DNA of 64,000 bases from Deltaproteobacteria bacterium (GCA_029261815.1 JAJDAQ010000068.1:1-64000); one strand, 5' to 3'; counted from the stretch's first letter, positions 37,979 to 47,845 are shown. A program made the numbers and translations. Notes: a model not told the origin generated them from the letters alone.

Positions 37979-38614
37979 ATGCGTCCCGGCGACACGACTC
38001 AACGGCCCCTCTCGCTCGTTGCATTGGACGTCGCCGGCGTTGTGGTTTTCTGCGCCGCGCTCGTCTGGGCGGTATTGCAGGTGGCGGCGCTGCCGGGATG
38101 GACGGGTGCCCTCCTGTTGGGCGCGGCCGGAGTGGCCGGCATAGCGACCGCCGACTTTTCGAGCGGCGTCGTGCATTGGCTCGGCGACACCTACGGTTCC
38201 GAGGAGACGCCGCTCCTGGGCCGCGCCTTGATCCTGCCGTTCCGCGAACATCACACGGACCCGATGGCCATCGTTCGTCATGGCTTCCTGGAAGTCACGG
38301 GCAACAACGCCTGGGGGGCGACGCCCTTCGTCTGGCTCGCGGGTAAGCTCGCGCCCGCCGTTGGCACGGATCCGTGGGCGACCGCCAGCTTCGGGTTCCT
38401 GGTGGCCTTGTCGATCACGGGCGTGATCAGCAATCAGCTGCATCGCTACGCACACATGGCCGAAGTCCCGGTCGCGGTTCGTTGCCTGCAGCGGTGGGGC
38501 GTCTTGCTGTCGCGCGAGGTGCATTCCCATCATCATCGCAACGCGCACGATCATGCGTTCTGCGTGGTGAACGGCTGGATGAATCCGATCCTGGACCGCT
38601 GGGTGCGGCCTTGA
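37979..38614 (+). CDS. carF: Plasmanylethanolamine desaturase, CarF/TMEM189 (Kua) family
   Basis: A 211-residue four-helix membrane enzyme with the full set of His motifs of the lipid-desaturase/Kua domain: SSGVVHWLGDTYG, PFREHHTDPMAIVRHGF, NQLHRYAHM and SREVHSHHHRNAHDHAF. In Myxococcus CarF and animal PEDS1 this fold introduces the vinyl-ether double bond of plasmalogens from alkyl-ether phospholipids using a diiron centre and O2. All eight or so His candidates are present. The following membrane protein overlaps by 4 bases (TTGA). No ether-lipid synthesis gene is visible in the window. Confidence 0.9.
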   Translation: MRPGDTTQRPLSLVALDVAGVVVFCAALVWAVLQVAALPGWTGALLLGAAGVAGIATADFSSGVVHWLGDTYGSEETPLLGRALILPFREHHTDPMAIVRHGFLEVTGNNAWGATPFVWLAGKLAPAVGTDPWATASFGFLVALSITGVISNQLHRYAHMAEVPVAVRCLQRWGVLLSREVHSHHHRNAHDHAFCVVNGWMNPILDRWVRP

Positions 38615-39336
38615 ACTTCGAGAGTTGGCACGCGTTCTACTACGGGGCCTGGCAATGGCCATGGGCGTTGTTGGTCGTCCCCTTCGCTTGGATGATCGCC
38701 CGCGCCGTCGGTCGAGGTGCGCCGCCGACGGACCTGCTCGGTCGCTTCATTCGTCTCTGGAGCACGATCTTCCTGGTCGAGACGATGCTGGACCCGATCG
38801 CGGGCCAGCTCGTGAAGTCGGCGAGCGATCCGGTTCAGACGGGTGTGGGCCTCTTTTTCGTTCTGGCCGGAGACTTCCGGATCTACTGGCTGCTCGTCGC
38901 GTTGGTCGAGCGCGGCGCGTGGACATGGGCCGGCGTTGCACGCGCGCTGGGGTTGACCCTCATCGTGCCGGCAGCAGCCTTTGTGCTGACGAGAACCCTG
39001 GGTGCCATTCACGGGGAAGTGCCGGGACAGGTCCTGTGGCTGACCCATGAAGCGCTCTTCGTCGCCGTCATCGTTTTCGCCGCACGTTTCTGGGTGCCGA
39101 GTGCGCTCGAAGGGGAGGCCGCCCGTCTGGCGCGCCGGATCTGCGCCTGGGTCGCTGTCTACTACAGCCTCTGGGCGGCCGCCGACGTCCTGATCCTGGC
39201 CGGGGTCGATGCGGGCTGGCTCGTACGCTGCATCCCCAACCAGCTCTACTACGCGCTGACGGTTCCGTTCGTCGAGTGCGCCGCTCGCTGCGTCTCGAAT
39301 GCGCGCACCAGTACGTCGGCCCAGGCCGCGAGGTAG
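38611..39336 (+). CDS. Membrane protein of unknown function next to carF
   Basis: A 241-residue protein with about seven hydrophobic segments (WQWPWALLVVPFAWMIA, VQTGVGLFFVLAGDFRIYW, LGLTLIVPAAAFVL, others). I recognise no family. It starts at TTG 38611, overlapping the carF stop, so it is most likely translated together with CarF and may work on the same lipids (inference). Its final 88 bases overlap the SIS-creatininase gene on the opposite strand. Low similarity to anything I know; a reading-frame test across relatives would help. Confidence 0.65.
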   Translation: MNFESWHAFYYGAWQWPWALLVVPFAWMIARAVGRGAPPTDLLGRFIRLWSTIFLVETMLDPIAGQLVKSASDPVQTGVGLFFVLAGDFRIYWLLVALVERGAWTWAGVARALGLTLIVPAAAFVLTRTLGAIHGEVPGQVLWLTHEALFVAVIVFAARFWVPSALEGEAARLARRICAWVAVYYSLWAAADVLILAGVDAGWLVRCIPNQLYYALTVPFVECAARCVSNARTSTSAQAAR

Positions 39337-41069
39337 CGCTCGGCTCGGTCGCGCGAGGCCCGGCGCGGGTCGCCGACCACACCGTCACGCGCATGCCGGC
39401 GCAGGTCCGGGTAGAAGAGCGCGCTTCCGGAAGGCGCCGACTCCATGAAGCCGCGCTTCAGGGCATTGCGCCGGACGGCGCCCGGTCGGATGCGGTCGAG
39501 GATCGAAGTCTCGAGCTCGCCAGCGTGTTGCCCCGCTTCGGCGGCCGAGATTCCAGGGTCCGCCGCCAGCATCTCCTCGAAGAGCGCTCCGTGCTCGGTG
39601 AACGCGAACCAATGCGCGGGCGCGGCGGCCTGGACCAGCCGCTCGCTGTGGTTGCGCAATGTCCCGAGGTTTCCACCGTGCGCCGAATAACAAAAAACAT
39701 GCTCGAAGCCGTGGTGCGCGAGGGACTCGCCAATGTCAGCCAGGACGGCCGCGAGCGTTTCCTCGGTCACGCTCAACGTTCCGGCGAATGCGAGGTGTTC
39801 GCTCGCCGCTCCGACCGGCAGCGTGGGCAACAAGACCGCGTCCGGCATGCGCTCCACGACCCGGAGTCCGACGGCTTCAGCGATCCAGGTATCCGTGGCG
39901 AGCGGCAGGTGGGGGCCGTGTTGTTCGGTGGATCCGAGCGGGAGCAGCGCGGTTCGTCGTCCGGCGGCCAGGTGGGCATCGACTTCGGGCCAGGTCGCGG
40001 CATCCAACTGGATCCCGGGCCGTGTCCGAGGGCCGGGCGCGAGGTCGCGTCCGACGCCGTAGAGCGGTTCGTCTTCATCCTTGCCCGGCCACGTCTCCGG
40101 GTCCCGCTGAGCGGCCGCCATGGCCGCCAGGATGAATGCATTGGCCGCGGCTTCGGCCTCGATCGCCGCGAGGGGCTCGGGAAGGGTCGTCCAGACCGGA
40201 ACGAGCCGGTGGTGCCGGGCGTCGAGCATGCGGCCGATCCGGTCGAGGTGATCGGGGGCGGCGGGGTCATTCTGCGCGACGAAGGCCACCACGAACGCCG
40301 GCCCGTTCCGCACGACCTGGAATGGACCGTGGGCGAAATCGAGCAGATCTGTCACCGGGGGCATGGGTCGCAAGAGCGCCTCGGACGCTTTCAGTCGCAG
40401 GTTGTCGAGATGAGGGGCCAGCGCTCCACCCGCGAGGAAGAGAAGCGGCGCGGAGGCGAGCAGCGCCGCCTCCGCGCGCGCAGATGCTTGCGCTGCGGAG
40501 AATGCGGCTTGCGCAGCGCCTGCGACTTCGGCCGCCGACGGTCCCGGGGCCGCGCCGAATGCGCGCGCGACCTGCCAGGCCGGCCAGTACGCAATCGCGG
40601 GCCCGGCCAAGCGAACCAGCGTCCCGTACTCGTCACCGGCACCGGAGTCGACCAGGATGGCGCCGGCATCCTCCAGCGCTTGCGCAAATTGACCGCGCTC
40701 GTCGGGGCCCGGTCGTGTCGACGTGACGACGACGAGACCCTGCCAGGCGCCAGGCTCCGCGGTGGCGAGGCGGGCATTGGGCGAAAGCCCCTGGCTGAAG
40801 ACCACCAGCAGGTCTTCCCGATGACGCTGAGCGTGCTCGGCCGGGAAGGAACTCGGAGACAGGAAGCGCGCCGGCACACCGAGTCCGCCGAGGTGGTGGG
40901 CGAGGCTGCGCGCGTGGGCGCCCGAGCTTCCCACGCCGGTCGTGACGACGCGCCGGATGCCCGCGGTCGGTAGCTCGAGAAGCGCGTCGCCCAGCGCCTC
41001 GATTCGTGCCGGAACCGACGCCGCCCGTTGGCGAAGCCGAGCGAGGGCGTTGTCGGTCCCCGCAGACAT
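39249..41069 (-). CDS. Double-SIS (GlmS-like) domain fused to creatininase domain
   Basis: 606 residues. Residues 1-330 look like two SIS sugar-phosphate-binding subdomains: TTGVGSSGAHARSLAHHLGG (44-63), VFSQGLSPNARLA (90-102), then LKASEALLRP and DFAHGPFQVV, the GlmS-like Glu and HGP positions. Residues 350-590 form a creatininase-family amidohydrolase: GSTEQHGPHLPLATD with E382, H384 and D393 as metal ligands, SAHGGN (H464) and GQHAGELETS (H515/E518). Creatininase members open cyclic amides or deformylate, for example ArfB acting on FAPy. Starts 5 bases after the cyclohydrolase gene. I know no characterised protein with this fusion. Confidence 0.82.
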   Translation of the reverse strand: MSAGTDNALARLRQRAASVPARIEALGDALLELPTAGIRRVVTTGVGSSGAHARSLAHHLGGLGVPARFLSPSSFPAEHAQRHREDLLVVFSQGLSPNARLATAEPGAWQGLVVVTSTRPGPDERGQFAQALEDAGAILVDSGAGDEYGTLVRLAGPAIAYWPAWQVARAFGAAPGPSAAEVAGAAQAAFSAAQASARAEAALLASAPLLFLAGGALAPHLDNLRLKASEALLRPMPPVTDLLDFAHGPFQVVRNGPAFVVAFVAQNDPAAPDHLDRIGRMLDARHHRLVPVWTTLPEPLAAIEAEAAANAFILAAMAAAQRDPETWPGKDEDEPLYGVGRDLAPGPRTRPGIQLDAATWPEVDAHLAAGRRTALLPLGSTEQHGPHLPLATDTWIAEAVGLRVVERMPDAVLLPTLPVGAASEHLAFAGTLSVTEETLAAVLADIGESLAHHGFEHVFCYSAHGGNLGTLRNHSERLVQAAAPAHWFAFTEHGALFEEMLAADPGISAAEAGQHAGELETSILDRIRPGAVRRNALKRGFMESAPSGSALFYPDLRRHARDGVVGDPRRASRDRAERYLAAWADVLVRAFETQRAAHSTNGTVSA

Positions 41070-41074
41070 GGTGA

Positions 41075-42094
41075 CTAGGGCGTTCGCGCGAGCAGGGCCG
41101 CGACGTGCGGCGAGCCCGGCGATTCATCGGGTGCGAGGAACAGCGCGCGGCCGGCGCCGGCTGCTTCGATCTCGCTGCGCAGGCGGCGCCAGTCGGCCGC
41201 GTCCGGGCCGGGTTCGACCAGCGGGAAACGGTCCGTCAGGGTCTGGGCGACGACGCCGCGCGGCCCGCCATCCCGCCCGAGTTCGAGGACGACGCGCTCG
41301 GTCCCGCGCAGCAGATCGAAGTAGACGTGGCAGCGGTACCAGACGGGCTCGGGCGCATCGGCCTGAAGCGGATGTAGTGGCAACAGGTAGGAGGCGACAT
41401 GCGCCACGTGGGGGAGGTCGGCGAGGAGGCTGCCGTCCGTCCACTCGACCGTCTCCGGGAGTCGGGCGGCGGTGGCGCGCCCCGGGTTCTCGAAAGCATG
41501 GCCCGATGCGGACTTGGCCGCGAGGTAGTGCTGGTTGAACGGCGAGACGTGTGGGTCGACCCGCTGTGTCCCCGAAACAGCGACCTTGGCTTGCTCGAGC
41601 CCGATGATCTTGTCCGGGTTGTTGGTCAGCAGCTGAAGGGGCGCGCAAACGCCCAGGGCCTGGAGTGCGAACGCGACCTCGCGATAGCTGCGCGCGTCCG
41701 CCGGGAGACCCATTCGTTCGTAGGCCTCGAACGTGTGGATCCGCTCCTTCGAAGCCTGGACCATCATCCGGTCGCGTGCCTTCGCGACGAAGCCCGCGCC
41801 TCGTCCTTCCTGCATCAGGTAGATCAGGACGCCGCGGCCGGCGCGGTCGATCGCGTCGAGGCCGCCGGCCAGCTGCTGTGCACAATCGCAGTCGCAGGCG
41901 CCGAAGACTTCGCTGGTGATGCAGGCCGAATGGATGCGTGCCAGGACCGGCTCGTGGGTCGAGACCTCTCCGCGTGCGAGCGTCCAGACGGATTCGCCCC
42001 GCGCCAGGTCCAGGAAGCGGGTACCACGGAAAGCGCCGTGCCGCGTCTTCAATGCGCGGCGTTCGACTTCGAGCAGGGATCCGAAGAGCGGCAT
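41075..42094 (-). CDS. Variant GTP cyclohydrolase II with C-terminal extension
   Basis: 339 residues against 196 in E. coli RibA. The RibA domain (residues 15-200) aligns closely: LARIHSACIT and CDCDC supply zinc ligands C58, C69 and C71; QEGRGAG; the Asp/Arg pair D133/R135 in ADAR; LLTNNPDKI. E. coli Tyr105 aligns without gaps to R109 (KARDRMM). In Streptomyces a paralogue with Met here stops at the formylated product FAPy. The last 140 residues have no counterpart in RibA and are unrecognised. Four-base gap after the crotonase gene. Probably not the riboflavin housekeeping enzyme. Confidence 0.85.
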   Translation of the reverse strand: MPLFGSLLEVERRALKTRHGAFRGTRFLDLARGESVWTLARGEVSTHEPVLARIHSACITSEVFGACDCDCAQQLAGGLDAIDRAGRGVLIYLMQEGRGAGFVAKARDRMMVQASKERIHTFEAYERMGLPADARSYREVAFALQALGVCAPLQLLTNNPDKIIGLEQAKVAVSGTQRVDPHVSPFNQHYLAAKSASGHAFENPGRATAARLPETVEWTDGSLLADLPHVAHVASYLLPLHPLQADAPEPVWYRCHVYFDLLRGTERVVLELGRDGGPRGVVAQTLTDRFPLVEPGPDAADWRRLRSEIEAAGAGRALFLAPDESPGSPHVAALLARTP

Positions 42095-42098
42095 GCGC

Positions 42099-42899
42099 CT
42101 AACTTGGATCCTCGAACCGGGGCTTTCGCTTTTCCATGTTGGCTTTGACGGCCTCTTGCTGGTTGGGCTTGCCCATGAGGGTGCCCTGGAGCCGGGCTTC
42201 GAGGGCCAGGCCGTCCTCGACCGTTCCCACGACCGCCTGGTTCCACAGTTGTTTGGCCGCGCGGACCGCGTCCGGGCTGCGCTCGGCGATCTCGTACGCG
42301 AGCTTCATGGCGTCCGCGTGCGGGTCTTCGCTCACATGCGTGGCCAGGCCGAGTTCCTTCGCTTCGACGCCCGAGATGACCCGGGCGGTGAAGGTGAGTT
42401 CCTTGGCGTGGTCGAGTCCGATCAGGTGGCGCAACGTCTGTGTGCCCGAGACATCGGGGATCAAGCCCCAGTGCGATTCGCGAATGGACAGCCGGGCATC
42501 GGGCGCGACGTACCGGATATCCGCACCGAGGGCGATCTGGATGCCGGCGCCGTAGGCCACGCCGTGGACGGCGGCGATGACGGGGACCGGGACTTCTTGC
42601 CAGACCCAGGCGGCGCGCTGCGCGTAGTTGGCCGGGCTCTCGTCGCTCTTTGTCGCGAGGTTGGGGCCCTCGCGCTTGCCCGTGTTGGCCATCAGGCCGG
42701 GAATGTCGAGCCCGCTGCAGAATGCCCGGCCTTCGCCCGAAAGCACCACCGCGCGCAGGCTCTTGTCCTGGGCGAGTTCGGCGCCGGTTTCGACCAGGGC
42801 CATGAACATGTCCAGGTCGACGGCATTCATCTTGTCGGCGCGCGCCATGCGCACGTCGGCAATGCCGTCCTTCTTCTCCACGCGAACCCGATCGGACAT
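42099..42899 (-). CDS. Enoyl-CoA hydratase/isomerase (crotonase) family protein
   Basis: 266 residues. Oxyanion-hole segments are AFCSGLDIPGL and the ACC-like AAVHGVAYGAGIQIAL; RESHWGLIPDVSGTQTLRHL covers the catalytic loop, with Glu in RES and Asp in PDVSG. The C-terminus ends in the charged helix KANMEKRKPRF. A GGAGG-like site precedes ATG 42899. It is third from the regulator in the HxlR-divergent operon, between the CMD-like protein and the cyclohydrolase homologue, so it may serve the same pathway rather than fatty-acid oxidation. Confidence 0.87.
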   Translation of the reverse strand: MSDRVRVEKKDGIADVRMARADKMNAVDLDMFMALVETGAELAQDKSLRAVVLSGEGRAFCSGLDIPGLMANTGKREGPNLATKSDESPANYAQRAAWVWQEVPVPVIAAVHGVAYGAGIQIALGADIRYVAPDARLSIRESHWGLIPDVSGTQTLRHLIGLDHAKELTFTARVISGVEAKELGLATHVSEDPHADAMKLAYEIAERSPDAVRAAKQLWNQAVVGTVEDGLALEARLQGTLMGKPNQQEAVKANMEKRKPRFEDPS

Positions 42900-42924
42900 C
42901 CAACCTCCAAGGTGAAGGGGGATG

Positions 42925-43488
42925 CTAGCCCGTCTCCGGCGCAGCCGGGAACCGTTCGGCCATGGACTCGAGTGGGAGCCTCAGCGCATTCACCAGGAAT
43001 GACACAGCGTGGTACATCCCGACCGTGTAGATGATCTCGAGGGATTGCTCCTCGTCGAAGTGTTCACGGAGTGCTTCCCAGGCCGTGTCGGAGAGGTCCG
43101 AAGTCCGGTGGAGTTCGTCACACACGCGGACCAGCGCGGCCTCGCGCGGGTTCCAGCCGGCGTCGGTGGCCCCCGCTTGGGCCGTGCGCGCGACCCAGGC
43201 ATCGTCGAGGCCCAGGGCGCGGGCGAACGCCGTGACGTGTACGCCCCATTCGTACTCGGCGCCGCAATTGGCCGTCGTCCGGTGGATCACGAGTTCTCGG
43301 TCACGAATCGGGACCGGCCCGCGGTCGAGCACGCCAGCGCGCATGAAGCGGGGGAAGATGCGCGTGTTGGTGGCCAGGACGCGGAACAGCAGCAGCGGGT
43401 CCATCCCCGGCGGCATGGCGAGATCGAACAGGTGTTGGACCTCGTCGGTGTAGGGCGGCTCGAGGGGGAGGATGCGGGGCGTCGTCAT
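42925..43488 (-). CDS. Carboxymuconolactone decarboxylase family (AhpD-like) protein
   Basis: 187 residues of the CMD/AhpD all-helical fold. The core segment is RDRELVIHRTTANCGAEYEW, followed by GVHV: Cys then Glu-x-Glu-Trp-x-x-His, so the CxxC redox pair of AhpD is reduced to one Cys and a peroxidase role is unlikely. Strong AAGGAGAT ribosome site before ATG 43488. First gene of the operon divergent from hxlR, with a palindromic operator in the 77-base gap. Confidence 0.86.
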   Translation of the reverse strand: MTTPRILPLEPPYTDEVQHLFDLAMPPGMDPLLLFRVLATNTRIFPRFMRAGVLDRGPVPIRDRELVIHRTTANCGAEYEWGVHVTAFARALGLDDAWVARTAQAGATDAGWNPREAALVRVCDELHRTSDLSDTAWEALREHFDEEQSLEIIYTVGMYHAVSFLVNALRLPLESMAERFPAAPETG

Positions 43489-43500
43489 CAGGATCTCCTT

Positions 43501-43546
43501 GCTACGGAAAACGAAGCGTCTTTTCGAATGCTACGTTTTCCGTAGC
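43501..43546. promoter_or_regulatory. Palindromic operator in the CMD/hxlR divergent region
   Basis: GCTACGGAAAACG (43501-43513) and CGTTTTCCGTAGC (43534-43546) are perfect 13-base inverted repeats, 20 bases apart. The right arm also forms a smaller palindrome, GCTACG-TTTTC-CGTAGC (43530-43546). The element fills most of the 77-base gap between the two divergent starts, ideal for autoregulation by the HxlR protein. Confidence 0.7.
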
Positions 43547-43565
43547 TATTCGCAAGGAGAATCCG

Positions 43566-43892
43566 ATGTCCCCGCCCCAGCCCGGTCGTCCCGTTCGCGG
43601 CTCACGAACGGGACGGCCGATCATGGCCGCCCTCGACCTCCTGGGTCGCCGTTGGACGCTCCGCGTCCTGTGGGAACTCCGTGAGGGCCCCGCCACCTTT
43701 CGGGCGCTTCAGGAACGCTGCGGCGGCATCTCGCCGAGTGTGCTCAATACGCGCCTTCGGGAACTGCGCGACGCCGGGATCGTGGGGGAGGCCCTGGCCG
43801 AGGGCACCGCGCTGACCCGCCAGGGCGAGGCCTTGCTGAAGGCGCTGGGACCGCTGGACGGCTGGGCCAAGCGGTGGGCGAAGAGACGTTAG
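43566..43892 (+). CDS. HxlR-family winged-helix regulator
   Basis: 108 residues, the usual HxlR length. Motifs LLGRRWTLRVLWELREGPATF, within which the first helix lies (residues 25-45), and [19 protein letters not shown], the recognition helix and wing lead-in. One Cys (in QERCGG, residue 47) rather than the redox pair or N-terminal Cys of HypR-type sensors. A strong AAGGAGA site precedes ATG. Divergent from the four-gene CMD-crotonase-cyclohydrolase-SIS/creatininase operon, and very likely its regulator through the 43501-43546 palindrome. Confidence 0.88.
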   Translation: MSPPQPGRPVRGSRTGRPIMAALDLLGRRWTLRVLWELREGPATFRALQERCGGISPSVLNTRLRELRDAGIVGEALAEGTALTRQGEALLKALGPLDGWAKRWAKRR

Positions 43893-43895
43893 GCG

Positions 43896-45236
43896 TCAGT
43901 ACGCCGCAGCCGGAAGCCAGGTGACGAGCGCGGGCCAGAAGAGAAGCGTCGCGAGTCCGATCAGTTGCAGGGCGACGAACGGGGCGACGCCGCGATAGAG
44001 GTGCGGAAGCTCGATGCCCTCGGGCGCAACGCCCTTCAGATAGAAGAGCGCGAAGCCCACCGGGGGCGTCAGGAACGACGTCTGGAGGCAGACCGCGACC
44101 AGGATGGTGAACCAGAGCTTGTCGATCCCCAGGGTGGTCGTAATCGGCTCGACCAGTGGAAGCACGATCAGCGTGATCTCGATCCAGTCGAGGAAGAAGC
44201 CCAGCGCGAAGACGAGTGCCAACAAGCAGAGCACCACGCCGGTCGGCCCGAAGGGGAGGGCCGTGATCGCCCCCTCGATGACTTCGTCGCCGCCCAGTCC
44301 GCGCAGGACGACCGAGAAGCAGGTGGCGCCGAGGAAGATGGCGAAGATGAACGACGTCGTGCGCGCGGTCGCGCGAGACGTATCGCGCAGCGTCTGCAGT
44401 CGGAGCCTTCCCTTGACCGCCGCCAGCAGGGTCGCTCCCGCGGCGCCGACGCCGGCGGCCTCGGACGGTGACACGATGCCGAAAAAGATCGAGCCGAGGA
44501 CCGAGCCGATCAGGGCCAGGGGCGGCAGCAGTGCACGGATGACGTTCCAGAGCGCGGCGCGGTCCATGCGTGTCGCATTCGCGGGTGCCAGGTGCGGCCG
44601 TGCTGTGCACAACACGATCAGGTACGTCAGGTAGAGGCCGGCAAGCAGGAGGCCGGGGAAGACGGCGCCCAGGAAGAGGTCGCCGACGGACAGCTGCATC
44701 GGCTCGCTCATCAGGACGAGCATGATGCTGGGTGGAATCAGGATGCCGAGGCAACCAGCAGCAGCCACGGTTCCGACGGCGAGTTCCGGCTGGTAGCCGT
44801 CGTCGAGCATGGCCGGAAGGGCCAGGGTGCCCAGCAACGCCACCGAGGCGCCGATGATGCCCGTGGAGGCAGCCAGGACAACTCCCAGCAGTGTCACCGC
44901 GATCGCGAGTCCCCCCGACATCCGCCCCAGGGCCTGCTGCATCGCGCGCAACAGTTCGCCCGCGATGCCGCTGTGGTCGAGCATGTGCCCCATGAAGATG
45001 AACAACGGCAATGGAACGAGGCCGTAGTTGGACATGGTTCCGTAGATCCGGTCGACGACGAGACTCAGCGTGGTCAGGTCGGCATCCACCGGGACCCCGT
45101 TCGCGTTCAAGACCTCGCCGAGGATGGCGAACCAGACCCCCACGCCGGCGAGCACCCAGGCGACCGGATAGCCCGACATCAGCAGAGCGATGAAGCTCGT
45201 GAACATCAACGCGACGAAGACGAGGTTCCAGTCCAT
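43896..45236 (-). CDS. dctM: TRAP transporter large permease (DctM)
   Basis: 446 residues with about twelve transmembrane helices. Family segments: LPLFIFMGHMLDHSGIAGELL near residue 90, GAVFPGLLLAGLYL, LTPPVGFALFYLKGVAP near the C-terminus. It forms the transport channel of a tripartite ATP-independent periplasmic transporter, driven by the Na+ or H+ gradient. ATG 45236 is 2 bases from the dctQ stop. Substrate not predictable; TRAP systems usually carry organic acids. Ends 3 bases from the hxlR stop. Confidence 0.92.
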   Translation of the reverse strand: MDWNLVFVALMFTSFIALLMSGYPVAWVLAGVGVWFAILGEVLNANGVPVDADLTTLSLVVDRIYGTMSNYGLVPLPLFIFMGHMLDHSGIAGELLRAMQQALGRMSGGLAIAVTLLGVVLAASTGIIGASVALLGTLALPAMLDDGYQPELAVGTVAAAGCLGILIPPSIMLVLMSEPMQLSVGDLFLGAVFPGLLLAGLYLTYLIVLCTARPHLAPANATRMDRAALWNVIRALLPPLALIGSVLGSIFFGIVSPSEAAGVGAAGATLLAAVKGRLRLQTLRDTSRATARTTSFIFAIFLGATCFSVVLRGLGGDEVIEGAITALPFGPTGVVLCLLALVFALGFFLDWIEITLIVLPLVEPITTTLGIDKLWFTILVAVCLQTSFLTPPVGFALFYLKGVAPEGIELPHLYRGVAPFVALQLIGLATLLFWPALVTWLPAAAY

Positions 45237-45238
45237 GT

Positions 45239-45784
45239 CTACGTCGAGGTCTCTCGGGCATGGGGCGGGTCGGCGGGTGCGCCCAACAACGTCGCGAGCT
45301 GTCGAGCCGCCGTTCCCAGTGCCTGGATCGCGAGCAGGGCCAACGCGAAGAACAGGACGCCCTTGATCGCCCACCGCGCGGGCAAGCCGCTCGGCATCGA
45401 CGAGCGTTCGCCCATGTCCCAGGACTGCACGAAGAAGTCCCATGCGGAAGCCGCGGTGATCAGGGCGAACGGAAGCAGGAGGGCCAGGGTTCCGACCAGT
45501 TCGACCCAGGCCCTGGTGCGCGGGGAGAATCGCGCGTGCAACAGGTCCACGCGTACGTGGTCATCGTTGACCATGGCGTAGGCGTAGGCGAGCAGGAAGC
45601 CGGCGGCGTACAGGTGCCACTGGAGTTCTTCGAGCTCGATGAAGCCGCGACCGAAGCCGTAGCGGAGCGCCACGTTGACGATCAGGACCGCGCCAAGGAC
45701 CGGATAGAGCCAGGCGGCGGCCTCTCCGACCCGGGTCGAGAGCGCCGCCGTGGCCTGCGAGAAGCGCAGCAGAGCCTGGGTCAC
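45239..45784 (-). CDS. dctQ: TRAP transporter small permease (DctQ)
   Basis: 181 residues, four transmembrane helices, with the family segment YGFGRGFIELEELQWHLY and LLAYAYAMVNDDHVRVDLLH. It pairs with DctM and is required for TRAP transport. It starts 7 bases after the dctP stop, in the order P-Q-M typical of these operons. C-terminal 20 residues are soluble and vary in the family. Confidence 0.9.
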   Translation of the reverse strand: MTQALLRFSQATAALSTRVGEAAAWLYPVLGAVLIVNVALRYGFGRGFIELEELQWHLYAAGFLLAYAYAMVNDDHVRVDLLHARFSPRTRAWVELVGTLALLLPFALITAASAWDFFVQSWDMGERSSMPSGLPARWAIKGVLFFALALLAIQALGTAARQLATLLGAPADPPHARETST

Positions 45785-45791
45785 GACTGGT

Positions 45792-46868
45792 TCAGTTCGC
45801 CGCCGGCGGCGGGTACGCGATCGTGGACCAGGGCTTCTGGCGGGCCAGATAGCTGCGCTGCGAGTCGAGGGCGCGCGCGAAATCGGGGTCCTCGGCGCTC
45901 ATCTCGGCCAGTAGTTCCTCGGTCGCGTTCCGCATCACGTCGAGCATCTCGGGCGACCAGGTGTGGATCGTGACGCCGTCGGCTTCAAATGCGGCGAGCG
46001 CTTCGGCCTGGACCGAAACACCGCGCGCGATCTGGAAGATCGTAGTGGCGTGGCACGCGGTCTCGATCGTCGTGCGTTGGCCATCCGACAGGCCGTCCCA
46101 GACGGGCTTGTGCACGATCAGCTCCATGATCGACGCGGGCTGGTGCCAACCGGGAAAGTAGTAGTGCTTGGCCACCTTCTGGAAGCCGAGGTTCCGGTCG
46201 ACGACGGGCATGGAGTATTCCGTGGCGTCGAGGACACCGCGCTCGAGGGAGACGAAGAGATCGCCCGCCGGAATCTGGGTGGCAGAAGCGCCGAGTTTCT
46301 CGAGCACCTTGCCGCCGAGCCCGGCATAACGAACCTTCAAACCGACCAGGTCATCGGCAGATTCGATGGGTGTGCGAAACCAGCCAGAGGCCTCGGGCGG
46401 CAGCGCGCCGCAGGGAACCGGCACGAGGTCCACCTCGGCGTAGAGCTCGCGCCAGAGTTCGAGTCCGCCTCCCTCGTAGAGCCAGCCCAGTTGATCACGG
46501 GTTTCGGGACCGAACGGCACGGCACCGAAGACGGCGGCCGCCGGCACCTTGCCCAGCCAGTACGGCGAGAACGAGAGGCCGGCGTCGATCTTGCCGGCCG
46601 AGACCGCGTCGAAGATCTGCAGGGGCTTCACCAGCTTGTCGACGTCGTAGACCTTGATGTCCATCTCGTGGCCCGGAAGCGCATCGAGGGTGTCGCGCAG
46701 GTAGACGACCGCCTCGCCGAGCACGGGCATCGAAAACGGGTAGGAGCTCTGGATCTTGATCCGGACCCGTCGTTCGCCCGTGGCCTCGCCACTGGCCGTG
46801 TCCTGCGTGGGCGCTCCGCACCCGAGCAGCACCAGCGTGGCGAGGAAGGTGGCGGCCGCCCGCGTCAC
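45792..46868 (-). CDS. dctP: TRAP substrate-binding lipoprotein (DctP-type)
   Basis: 358 residues. The signal peptide ends in the lipobox LVLLGCGAP, so this TRAP binding protein is probably a lipoprotein. The mature part has the DctP/TAXI-like bilobal segments RIKIQSSYPF, LKVRYAGLGGKVLEKLGA and VLDATEYSMPVVDRNLGF, with the conserved substrate-binding Arg possibly in KVRYAG. GTG 46868 overlaps the previous stop by one base (TAGTG), suggesting translational coupling. Similar proteins bind mannitol, 2-oxoacids or other acids; ligand unknown. Confidence 0.88.
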   Translation of the reverse strand: MTRAAATFLATLVLLGCGAPTQDTASGEATGERRVRIKIQSSYPFSMPVLGEAVVYLRDTLDALPGHEMDIKVYDVDKLVKPLQIFDAVSAGKIDAGLSFSPYWLGKVPAAAVFGAVPFGPETRDQLGWLYEGGGLELWRELYAEVDLVPVPCGALPPEASGWFRTPIESADDLVGLKVRYAGLGGKVLEKLGASATQIPAGDLFVSLERGVLDATEYSMPVVDRNLGFQKVAKHYYFPGWHQPASIMELIVHKPVWDGLSDGQRTTIETACHATTIFQIARGVSVQAEALAAFEADGVTIHTWSPEMLDVMRNATEELLAEMSAEDPDFARALDSQRSYLARQKPWSTIAYPPPAAN

Positions 46869-47845
46869 TACTTGGCCTGGCGCAGGAATTCGGAGAGGCC
46901 GTAGCCCGTCCGGTCCCCGAGCTTCCATTCCGTCATGCCTTCGCCGATGTAGGTCTCGAGCTCACTGCGGCGGTTCCGCAGCGGAATGAAGTTCTGCACC
47001 GTGCCCGTGATGGTGTGCGACTCGCCGCTCTGGGTCTTGACGTGGGCCGTCACCGTCTTGTGGAAGGTGCCGTTGTCTTCGTACTCGGCATCGACCGTGG
47101 CTTCCACGATCCGGTCCATTTCGCCGTCGCGAATGATCACGCCGCCGGCGCTGCGTTGTTCGCCCGCCGCATCCTTCTGGACCACCGACACCATGGCGGC
47201 GAGGTCCGGCCCGAAGTTGAGCGTGAGCCACTCGTACTGGTGGATGGCCTGCCAGTGGCGCGGTCCCCAACTGTGGTCGCGCAACCCATAGCCGTCGACG
47301 TCGTAGACATCGTCTCCGATCTGCACGGATCCGGTCACGTGCATGTGCTGCTCGAAGTGGGCCTTGGCGAACGATTCCTCGGCCGAGCCGCCGTCGAGCT
47401 CTTCGTTCTTGTGGCCGTAGAGCGGGCCCGCGGCGTCGTGTTGCAGGTCGAAGCGCACCGCGACCTTGGGATTGTTCTTGAAGGCCTTGCTCGGGTCCTT
47501 CATGTCGCGCGGTTCGGCCATCAGCACACAGCGACCATCGAACGTCGTGCGATGCGTTTCCGTCGGCTCGACGACCTCGAAGGTCAGACCGCCGGCATCA
47601 TGCGCGTCGTTGTTGTCGATGCGCGGCCGGGCGAACGTGAAGGCCACTTTGCCGTCGGGCAGGTAGAGGCACACCGTCATCTCGGCCTGGCCTTCGTTGG
47701 CCCGGTTGCCGATCCGGAACCATCCACCGAGCGACGCGCGGGTGTCGAAGAAGTTGTAGTACGCACTCTCGTTGAAATTCGGCTCGGGGCCGAGGGGGTG
47801 CATGTAGTCGTCGGCGGGGTCGAGGTTTCCGATGATGCGGGCCAT
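46868..47845 (-). CDS. Lipocalin/CrtC-like conserved protein
   Basis: 325 residues, beta-rich, no signal peptide. It has VDGYGLRDHSWGPRHWQ near residue 215, a segment shared with CrtC/AttH-like and DUF7064-type lipocalins often found beside lipid- or steroid-degrading genes. I see no classical catalytic motif; CrtC enzymes hydrate carotenoids, others are unstudied. Strong AAGGAGC before ATG 47845. It is co-transcribed with a TRAP transporter (1-base overlap with dctP), so it may act on the transported substrate. Confidence 0.7.
   Translation of the reverse strand: MARIIGNLDPADDYMHPLGPEPNFNESAYYNFFDTRASLGGWFRIGNRANEGQAEMTVCLYLPDGKVAFTFARPRIDNNDAHDAGGLTFEVVEPTETHRTTFDGRCVLMAEPRDMKDPSKAFKNNPKVAVRFDLQHDAAGPLYGHKNEELDGGSAEESFAKAHFEQHMHVTGSVQIGDDVYDVDGYGLRDHSWGPRHWQAIHQYEWLTLNFGPDLAAMVSVVQKDAAGEQRSAGGVIIRDGEMDRIVEATVDAEYEDNGTFHKTVTAHVKTQSGESHTITGTVQNFIPLRNRRSELETYIGEGMTEWKLGDRTGYGLSEFLRQAK

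Follow-up and report, generated by a model that had tools for sequence, protein, structure and literature searches.

A conserved cyclohydrolase–SIS–creatininase gene module and a possible new route of purine nucleotide breakdown

The window analyzed here, a 64,000-nucleotide stretch of a Deltaproteobacteria bacterium genome (GCA_029261815.1 JAJDAQ010000068.1:1-64000), carries an operon that encodes a variant GTP cyclohydrolase II (GCHII) and a fusion of a double-SIS region with a creatininase-family hydrolase. As re-annotated, the operon comprises four minus-strand genes separated by gaps of 25, 4, and 5 bases, with an HxlR-family regulator divergent on the plus strand (Table 1); gene calls and Pfam searches, scored against curated cut-offs, agree with the layout given in an initial annotation. 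That annotation proposed an HxlR-controlled system in which a dedicated cyclohydrolase/hydrolase pair, an SIS domain, and two ancillary enzymes (CMD-like and crotonase) make or degrade a GTP-derived compound. The source is a draft genome of 4.9 Mb (89% complete) with relatives among the Myxococcota and 'Deltaproteobacteria'.

Table 1. Features of the operon and its immediate surroundings, in window coordinates
Feature	Position	Strand	Evidence
Double-SIS/creatininase-family fusion, 606 aa	39249..41069	-	Gene call, Pfam, full-length orthologues
SIS half of fusion, aa 1-345, two SIS domains	40035..41069	-	Foldseek, conservation
Creatininase-family half of fusion, aa 358-590	39300..39998	-	PF02633, invariant columns
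Variant GTP cyclohydrolase II, 339 aa	41075..42094	-	PF00925, AlphaFold model
Zinc-type cyclohydrolase domain of variant	41570..42061	-	Conserved residues
Degenerate second cyclohydrolase domain of variant (remnant), aa 205-339	41078..41482	-	Comparison with verrucomicrobial orthologues
Crotonase-family gene	42099..42899	-	PRK07509
CMD/AhpD-like gene	42925..43488	-	PF02627
Inverted repeat between HxlR and CMD genes (probable operator)	43501..43546	.	17-nt arms
HxlR-family regulator, divergent	43566..43892	+	PF01638
Multi-pass membrane protein, 241 aa, family unassigned	38611..39336	+	Homologue in 11/11 loci

The conserved unit at this locus is cyclohydrolase–SIS–creatininase, since the HxlR and CMD genes are absent even from a congeneric genome and the crotonase is genus-specific. 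Within the class of the window organism, the full-length fusion occurs in 11 of 91 genomes from three families (the copy in genome G067 runs off its contig), and the variant cyclohydrolase occurs in nine of the 91, all of them among the 11 fusion genomes (Fisher p 7e-11). The variants scored at least 377 bits, as against about 150–180 bits for canonical GCHII, with one extra partial match at a contig end. Gene order runs from the variant cyclohydrolase to the fusion and then to a membrane protein gene placed tail-to-tail. Across all loci, fusions included, SIS adjoins the cyclohydrolase in 47 of 80, mostly with gaps within a few tens of bases, and it is found elsewhere in the genome in 18 of the 24 genomes lacking this adjacency. 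The lineage restriction of the CMD, HxlR, and crotonase genes is what would be seen if four unrelated genes had come together by chance, and this explanation does hold for CMD and HxlR; for the core pair it is refuted by the recurrence of the RibA-like and SIS genes (with creatininase) in at least three phyla at gaps near zero, and as an account of the operon it is scarcely credible. The searched literature contains no description of this widely shared gene set, through which purine nucleotides may be dismantled by a new route. A Myxococcota-type operon with the fusion also appears in a metagenome-assembled genome titled Klebsiella pneumoniae (locus L035, CAMBZJ010000035.1), which is probably mislabelled.

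The cyclohydrolase of this module belongs to a clade of proteins misannotated as 'RibA'. The window protein passes the GTP_cyclohydro2 model (PF00925; 127.2 bits, cut-off 23.3) and fails the RibA equivalog TIGR00505 (119.3 bits, cut-off 205.85); in the phylogeny, the variants form one monophyletic clade (support 100/99) on a long stem. A canonical GCHII (239 bits) lies on a separate contig of the same genome (C72:1885-2379), which makes the window protein a paralogue; that it be the only RibA of its genome, named in the initial annotation as a circumstance that would refute the proposal, does not apply. Nearly all genomes of the class carry a canonical GCHII. Zinc ligands C58, C69, and C71 (54/65/67 in Escherichia coli), as well as D133 and R135 (E. 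coli D126 and R128), are present in the window protein and invariant in 22 of 22 members, and the TNNPxK motif, also present, is near-universal across the clade. The position of E. coli Tyr105, an active-site residue of GTP cyclohydrolase II, is placed at R109 by E. coli sequence numbering and is Arg in all 22 members. The AlphaFold model of the variant (pLDDT 90.5) superposes on E. coli GCHII (2bz0) with TM 0.91 by target length; its second-best structure matches are the UTP cyclohydrolases 7eev and 7ej3, and a HMMER profile alignment finds Arg at the Tyr105 position of 7eev as well, with TNNPxK replaced there by SMSNMK. Taken as a sequence signature, the Arg substitution with TNNPxK retained hints at a purine nucleotide substrate and an altered second half of the reaction.

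Compared with canonical RibA/RibBA, the variant has the same fold, zinc cysteines, D126, R128, and TNNPxK; it differs in the change of Tyr105 to Arg, a second degenerate domain, its separate clade, its sub-equivalog score, and neighborhoods without riboflavin genes. Verrucomicrobial orthologues of about 525 aa, such as the one in Cerasicoccus maritimus (L101:9860-11449), contain the intact domain followed by a degenerate one, visible as a second PF00925 match; in the window protein this remnant is shortened, with W252, R289, P291, G313, and G315 at conserved aligned positions. In searches of plasmid records, every match was either a creatininase standing alone or a GCHII of canonical or other type, and none covered 80% of either protein.

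The nearest precedents of the module are UTP cyclohydrolase and BrbF. In the URC uracil pathway, as proposed here for purines, a base is converted to a nucleotide by a phosphoribosyltransferase and then opened by an enzyme of the GCHII fold, with sugar phosphate and nitrogen released later, and UTP cyclohydrolase (URC1; 7eev, 7ej3) has Arg at the Tyr105 position. The module differs from URC in its purine context, its intact TNNPxK, its double-SIS partner, and the GTP_CH_N domain, which was not found. Membership in URC1 itself was rejected: the variant scores 24 against a cut-off of 403 bits with NF005536 (PRK07198), which we take to be the URC1-type model, matches no second Pfam family, and has not lost TNNPxK. 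Streptomyces coelicolor SCO6655, a GCHII paralogue with Met for the active-site Tyr, reportedly stops at a formamidopyrimidine (FAPy) product (work attributed to Spoonamore, 2006); it and the variant both replace the active-site Tyr, by Met and Arg respectively, and are likened by description only.

The SIS half of the fusion clearly has a double-SIS fold of the NagB-II/GlmS isomerase type. Its score with Pfam SIS (PF01380) is 15.6 bits, under the cut-off of 25, and Foldseek matches it to 8fdb (E 2e-11, TM 0.63 by target length) and also to 7dnr. K227, E230, and H247 are conserved, with spacing that fits the GlmS residues of established catalytic role. Fold and conserved K, E, and H are thus shared with NagB-II/GlmS; differences are the 11–20% identity to the best structures, the fusion to creatininase or linkage to cyclohydrolase, and the pentose phosphate expected as ligand. 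The creatininase half matches PF02633 at 203.7 bits, and its metal-site motifs are invariant: EQHG (E382, H384), TD (D393), HGGN (H464), and HAGE (E518). Assignments to more specific families did not hold. Membership in true creatininase was rejected on TIGR04448 (80.5 vs 235 bits) and on HGGN in place of the Glu122 metal-ligand motif, HYEN in the P. putida reference; the mycofactocin peptidase MftE (TIGR03964, 135 vs 172 bits) and the deformylase ArfB (NF033501, 15.8 vs 180 bits) were likewise under cut-off. Co-inheritance, the altered Tyr105, and the GlmS-like residues together strongly support the initial suggestion of a dedicated, non-riboflavin cyclohydrolase/hydrolase pair acting with SIS on a GTP-derived compound.

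Two further arrangements of creatininase-family genes were observed. In Pyxidicoccus fallax (L037), the gene after the variant encodes a creatininase on its own (47% identity to that of the window), and a Coq4-family gene and SDRs come next. Opitutaceae loci L171-L182 encode tandem creatininases of about 520 aa, in which a degenerate and an intact domain mirror the tandem cyclohydrolase; the neighborhoods of these separate genes showed no riboflavin or purine connection.

A genome-wide scan identified about 65 loci in Verrucomicrobia, where SIS is a separate gene directly behind the cyclohydrolase. The module is probably catabolic in these organisms, because the relatives there sit in purine-uptake and degradation clusters. 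Their neighbors include genes for transport and salvage (NCS2 purine permeases, the NUP nucleoside permease, adenine and adenosine deaminases, and HGPRT-like or Gpt-like phosphoribosyltransferases), as well as AMP nucleosidase, Rid, DUF3891, amidases, formamidase, and creatininase. Purine genes (permease, deaminases, phosphoribosyltransferase, and nucleoside permease) occur in 43 of 66 verrucomicrobial loci; among 40 control loci from that lineage, made up of canonical or zinc-less GCHIIs, lone creatininases, and lone SIS genes, none had any. The Fisher p-value of 5e-13 is indicative only, because the genomes are related and the purine queries had been picked from these very loci. Near-complete hydrolase clusters with creatininase and formamidase are found in four loci (L080, L146, L095, and L101), and creatininase-family genes in 30 of 30 verrucomicrobial genomes tested. 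Searches of 19 verrucomicrobial genomes found no uricase and, in one genome, a true allantoinase (over cut-off), so the clusters do not feed the uric acid route, with the caveat that many bacteria lack that route anyway.

From the genes present, their conservation and co-inheritance, the altered residues, the folds, and the purine neighbors, we infer every reaction of the model that follows, in which the module parallels for purines the URC breakdown of uracil, begun by UTP cyclohydrolase. The variant would open the imidazole ring through its zinc site and D126/R128 chemistry, releasing pyrophosphate, and Arg in place of Tyr105 would stop the reaction at a formamidopyrimidine nucleotide, FAPy-ribose-5-phosphate. 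The SIS half, modelled on NagB-II and other GlmS-type SIS enzymes acting on N-linked sugar phosphates, would bind the ribosylamine phosphate and isomerise or cleave it, returning ribose 5-phosphate; the creatininase half would take off the formyl group, like ArfB and BrbF. In Verrucomicrobia, import, deamination, and phosphoribosylation to the nucleotide would precede ring opening, and a series of amidases would follow. In the window organism, the same core reactions would be expected, ending in either degradation or precursor supply.

That the core is a three-activity module opening a purine nucleotide, most likely GTP, and catabolic in Verrucomicrobia, is on the present sequences a proposition for which we see an evenly balanced case. 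A broader reading, put forward tentatively and somewhat short of probable, is an oxygen-independent, nucleotide-level purine catabolism through the Tyr-to-Arg cyclohydrolase, SIS, and amidases; Myxococcota and their relatives would have acquired its core as a fused operon that may since have been re-purposed. Such a pathway would import purine bases and convert them to nucleotides, open GTP or a related purine nucleotide, and recover the ribose phosphate through the SIS enzyme; it would bypass xanthine dehydrogenase, uric acid, and allantoin, with creatininase-family and other amidases releasing nitrogen. Known purine breakdown routes (uric acid, xanthinase, and reductive routes) open the free base; a nucleotide-level route, if true, would be a new nitrogen-recycling branch in abundant aquatic and soil bacteria, and would explain the function of the whole clade misannotated as 'RibA'.

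Several observations weigh against this catabolic interpretation. The purine query set came from the loci themselves and the related genomes are not independent; SIS genes lying apart from the variant have no purine neighbors; and neither the window nor any of 18 related non-verrucomicrobial loci contains a purine gene. Strict partnership is broken by Pyxidicoccus, which has the variant and no SIS in its genome, and by genome G032 (L020), which has the fusion, a cytochrome, and a CobW GTPase without the variant. On the initial annotation's choice between making and degrading a compound, Verrucomicrobia point to degradation, and the window lineage, with no purine gene near the operon, gives no such indication.

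The genes around the non-verrucomicrobial loci bear on a biosynthetic alternative, in which the module makes a GTP-derived metabolite (a redox cofactor, pyrimidine, or pterin-like compound) for the membrane or periplasm. A c-type cytochrome lies directly upstream of the variant in 15 of 19 such loci (L019-L026, L035, L036, and L038-L042); it is about 300 aa long, with a C-terminal heme domain and an uncharacterised N-terminal domain, and its position is occupied by the crotonase in the window's genus. The membrane protein gene overlaps the fusion gene by 88 bp, tail-to-tail, and keeps this position in 11 of 11 loci, a conserved neighbor that is not co-directional; its 241-aa product had no match in a Pfam search. 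Both genes, together with the patchy distribution of the module within the class, speak for biosynthesis. Against it stand the verrucomicrobial orthologues beside purine permeases, deaminases, phosphoribosyltransferases, and amidases, and among conserved cluster members no ligases, methyltransferases, or reductases were recognised; we judge this alternative fairly unlikely. A pterin route without FolE was considered and is needless, as the genome encodes FolE; FolE2 is absent from the window genome. A Lipid_desat (PF10520) gene often follows the membrane protein gene (37979-38614 in the window), and a CobW-family GTPase, possibly a metal chaperone, lies beside the module in two genomes (L019 2743-3612, L020 6929-7804).

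A further complication for the catabolic interpretation comes from riboflavin synthesis. In 11 Opitutaceae-type genomes (L115-L125), the RibBA cyclohydrolase domain is without zinc ligands and forms one clade (100/100), lumazine synthase is present, and the variant is the sole zinc-intact GCHII; two of these genomes derive from cultures, IMCC26134 (complete) and Cerasicoccus maritimus. The variant should also serve riboflavin synthesis in these organisms. Any riboflavin that they make must come through the variant, a dependence that would fix GTP as its substrate, and in Verrucomicrobia the variant may mark the point where riboflavin synthesis and purine breakdown diverge. A nucleotide-level purine route would also explain why many Opitutaceae can do without the RibBA zinc site. 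The simpler rule that canonical GCHII is missing wherever the variant is present was rejected: it does not hold for Myxococcota, whereas the second GCHII of the 11 Opitutaceae-type genomes lacks the zinc site.

Archaea divide GTP opening and deformylation between two enzymes, ArfA and ArfB, the latter a creatininase-family deformylase. The archaeal cyclohydrolase is a GCHIII, unrelated in sequence to the variant; the module resembles ArfA/ArfB and BrbF in the two-part division and the creatininase-family deformylase. We know of no SIS domain in either system. The creatininase half is likened to BrbF by description only. BrbF, a bacterial creatininase-family formamidase, deformylates a GTP-derived FAPy nucleotide (AFRPP), and its matching cyclohydrolase was left undiscovered and postulated as 'BrbG' (PMC9478397); the variant is a candidate for this missing FAPy-forming enzyme. 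An alternative riboflavin branch, with the variant as bacterial FAPy-forming cyclohydrolase and the creatininase as deformylase, would fit the 11 zinc-less RibBA genomes and the creatininase-family genes seen in 30 of 30 verrucomicrobial genomes tested. We nonetheless consider such a branch decidedly unlikely as the module's function, given that the window genome keeps a canonical RibBA, as do other Myxococcota and two Verrucomicrobia (G096 and G108), that riboflavin synthesis has no use for an SIS partner, and that the neighbors are purine and not rib genes.

The remaining genes of the operon are local additions. The crotonase (PRK07509, 332.8 bits, cut-off 249; ECH_1, 155.4 bits) is a genus-specific addition, kept solely in one congeneric genome at 85% identity. 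The CMD-like gene (PF02627, 29.1 bits) and the HxlR regulator (PF01638, 49.3 bits, cut-off 20.8) had no match in 93 loci, congener included (tblastn E<=1e-4). Because CMD and HxlR are absent from other loci and the crotonase is genus-bound, the 'HxlR-controlled operon' is a local and recent assembly built on an older core. Conservation of the RibA-like and SIS-creatininase genes across families and phyla supports that part of the initial interpretation, the core pair with SIS; HxlR control and the two ancillary enzymes drop out of the system. Lack of conservation in relatives, the other circumstance that the initial annotation named as refuting it, thus applies to half of the proposal. The finding is more interesting as a cross-phylum module with purine context, and less so in that HxlR, CMD, and crotonase are incidental. 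FAPy-type compounds also arise by guanine oxidation, and this, with a CMD/AhpD-like gene in the operon, would suit a role in cleaning the nucleotide pool of oxidised or ring-opened guanine nucleotides; CMD is not conserved, and the presence of purine permeases and deaminases points to a substrate taken from outside, which makes that role very improbable. The inverted repeat between the HxlR and CMD genes, with arms 94% complementary and a 12-nt spacer, is a plausible candidate operator on sequence grounds. Beside HxlR lie genes for a TRAP transporter (DctM, DctQ, and DctP; window 43896-46928), which are syntenic in the congener.

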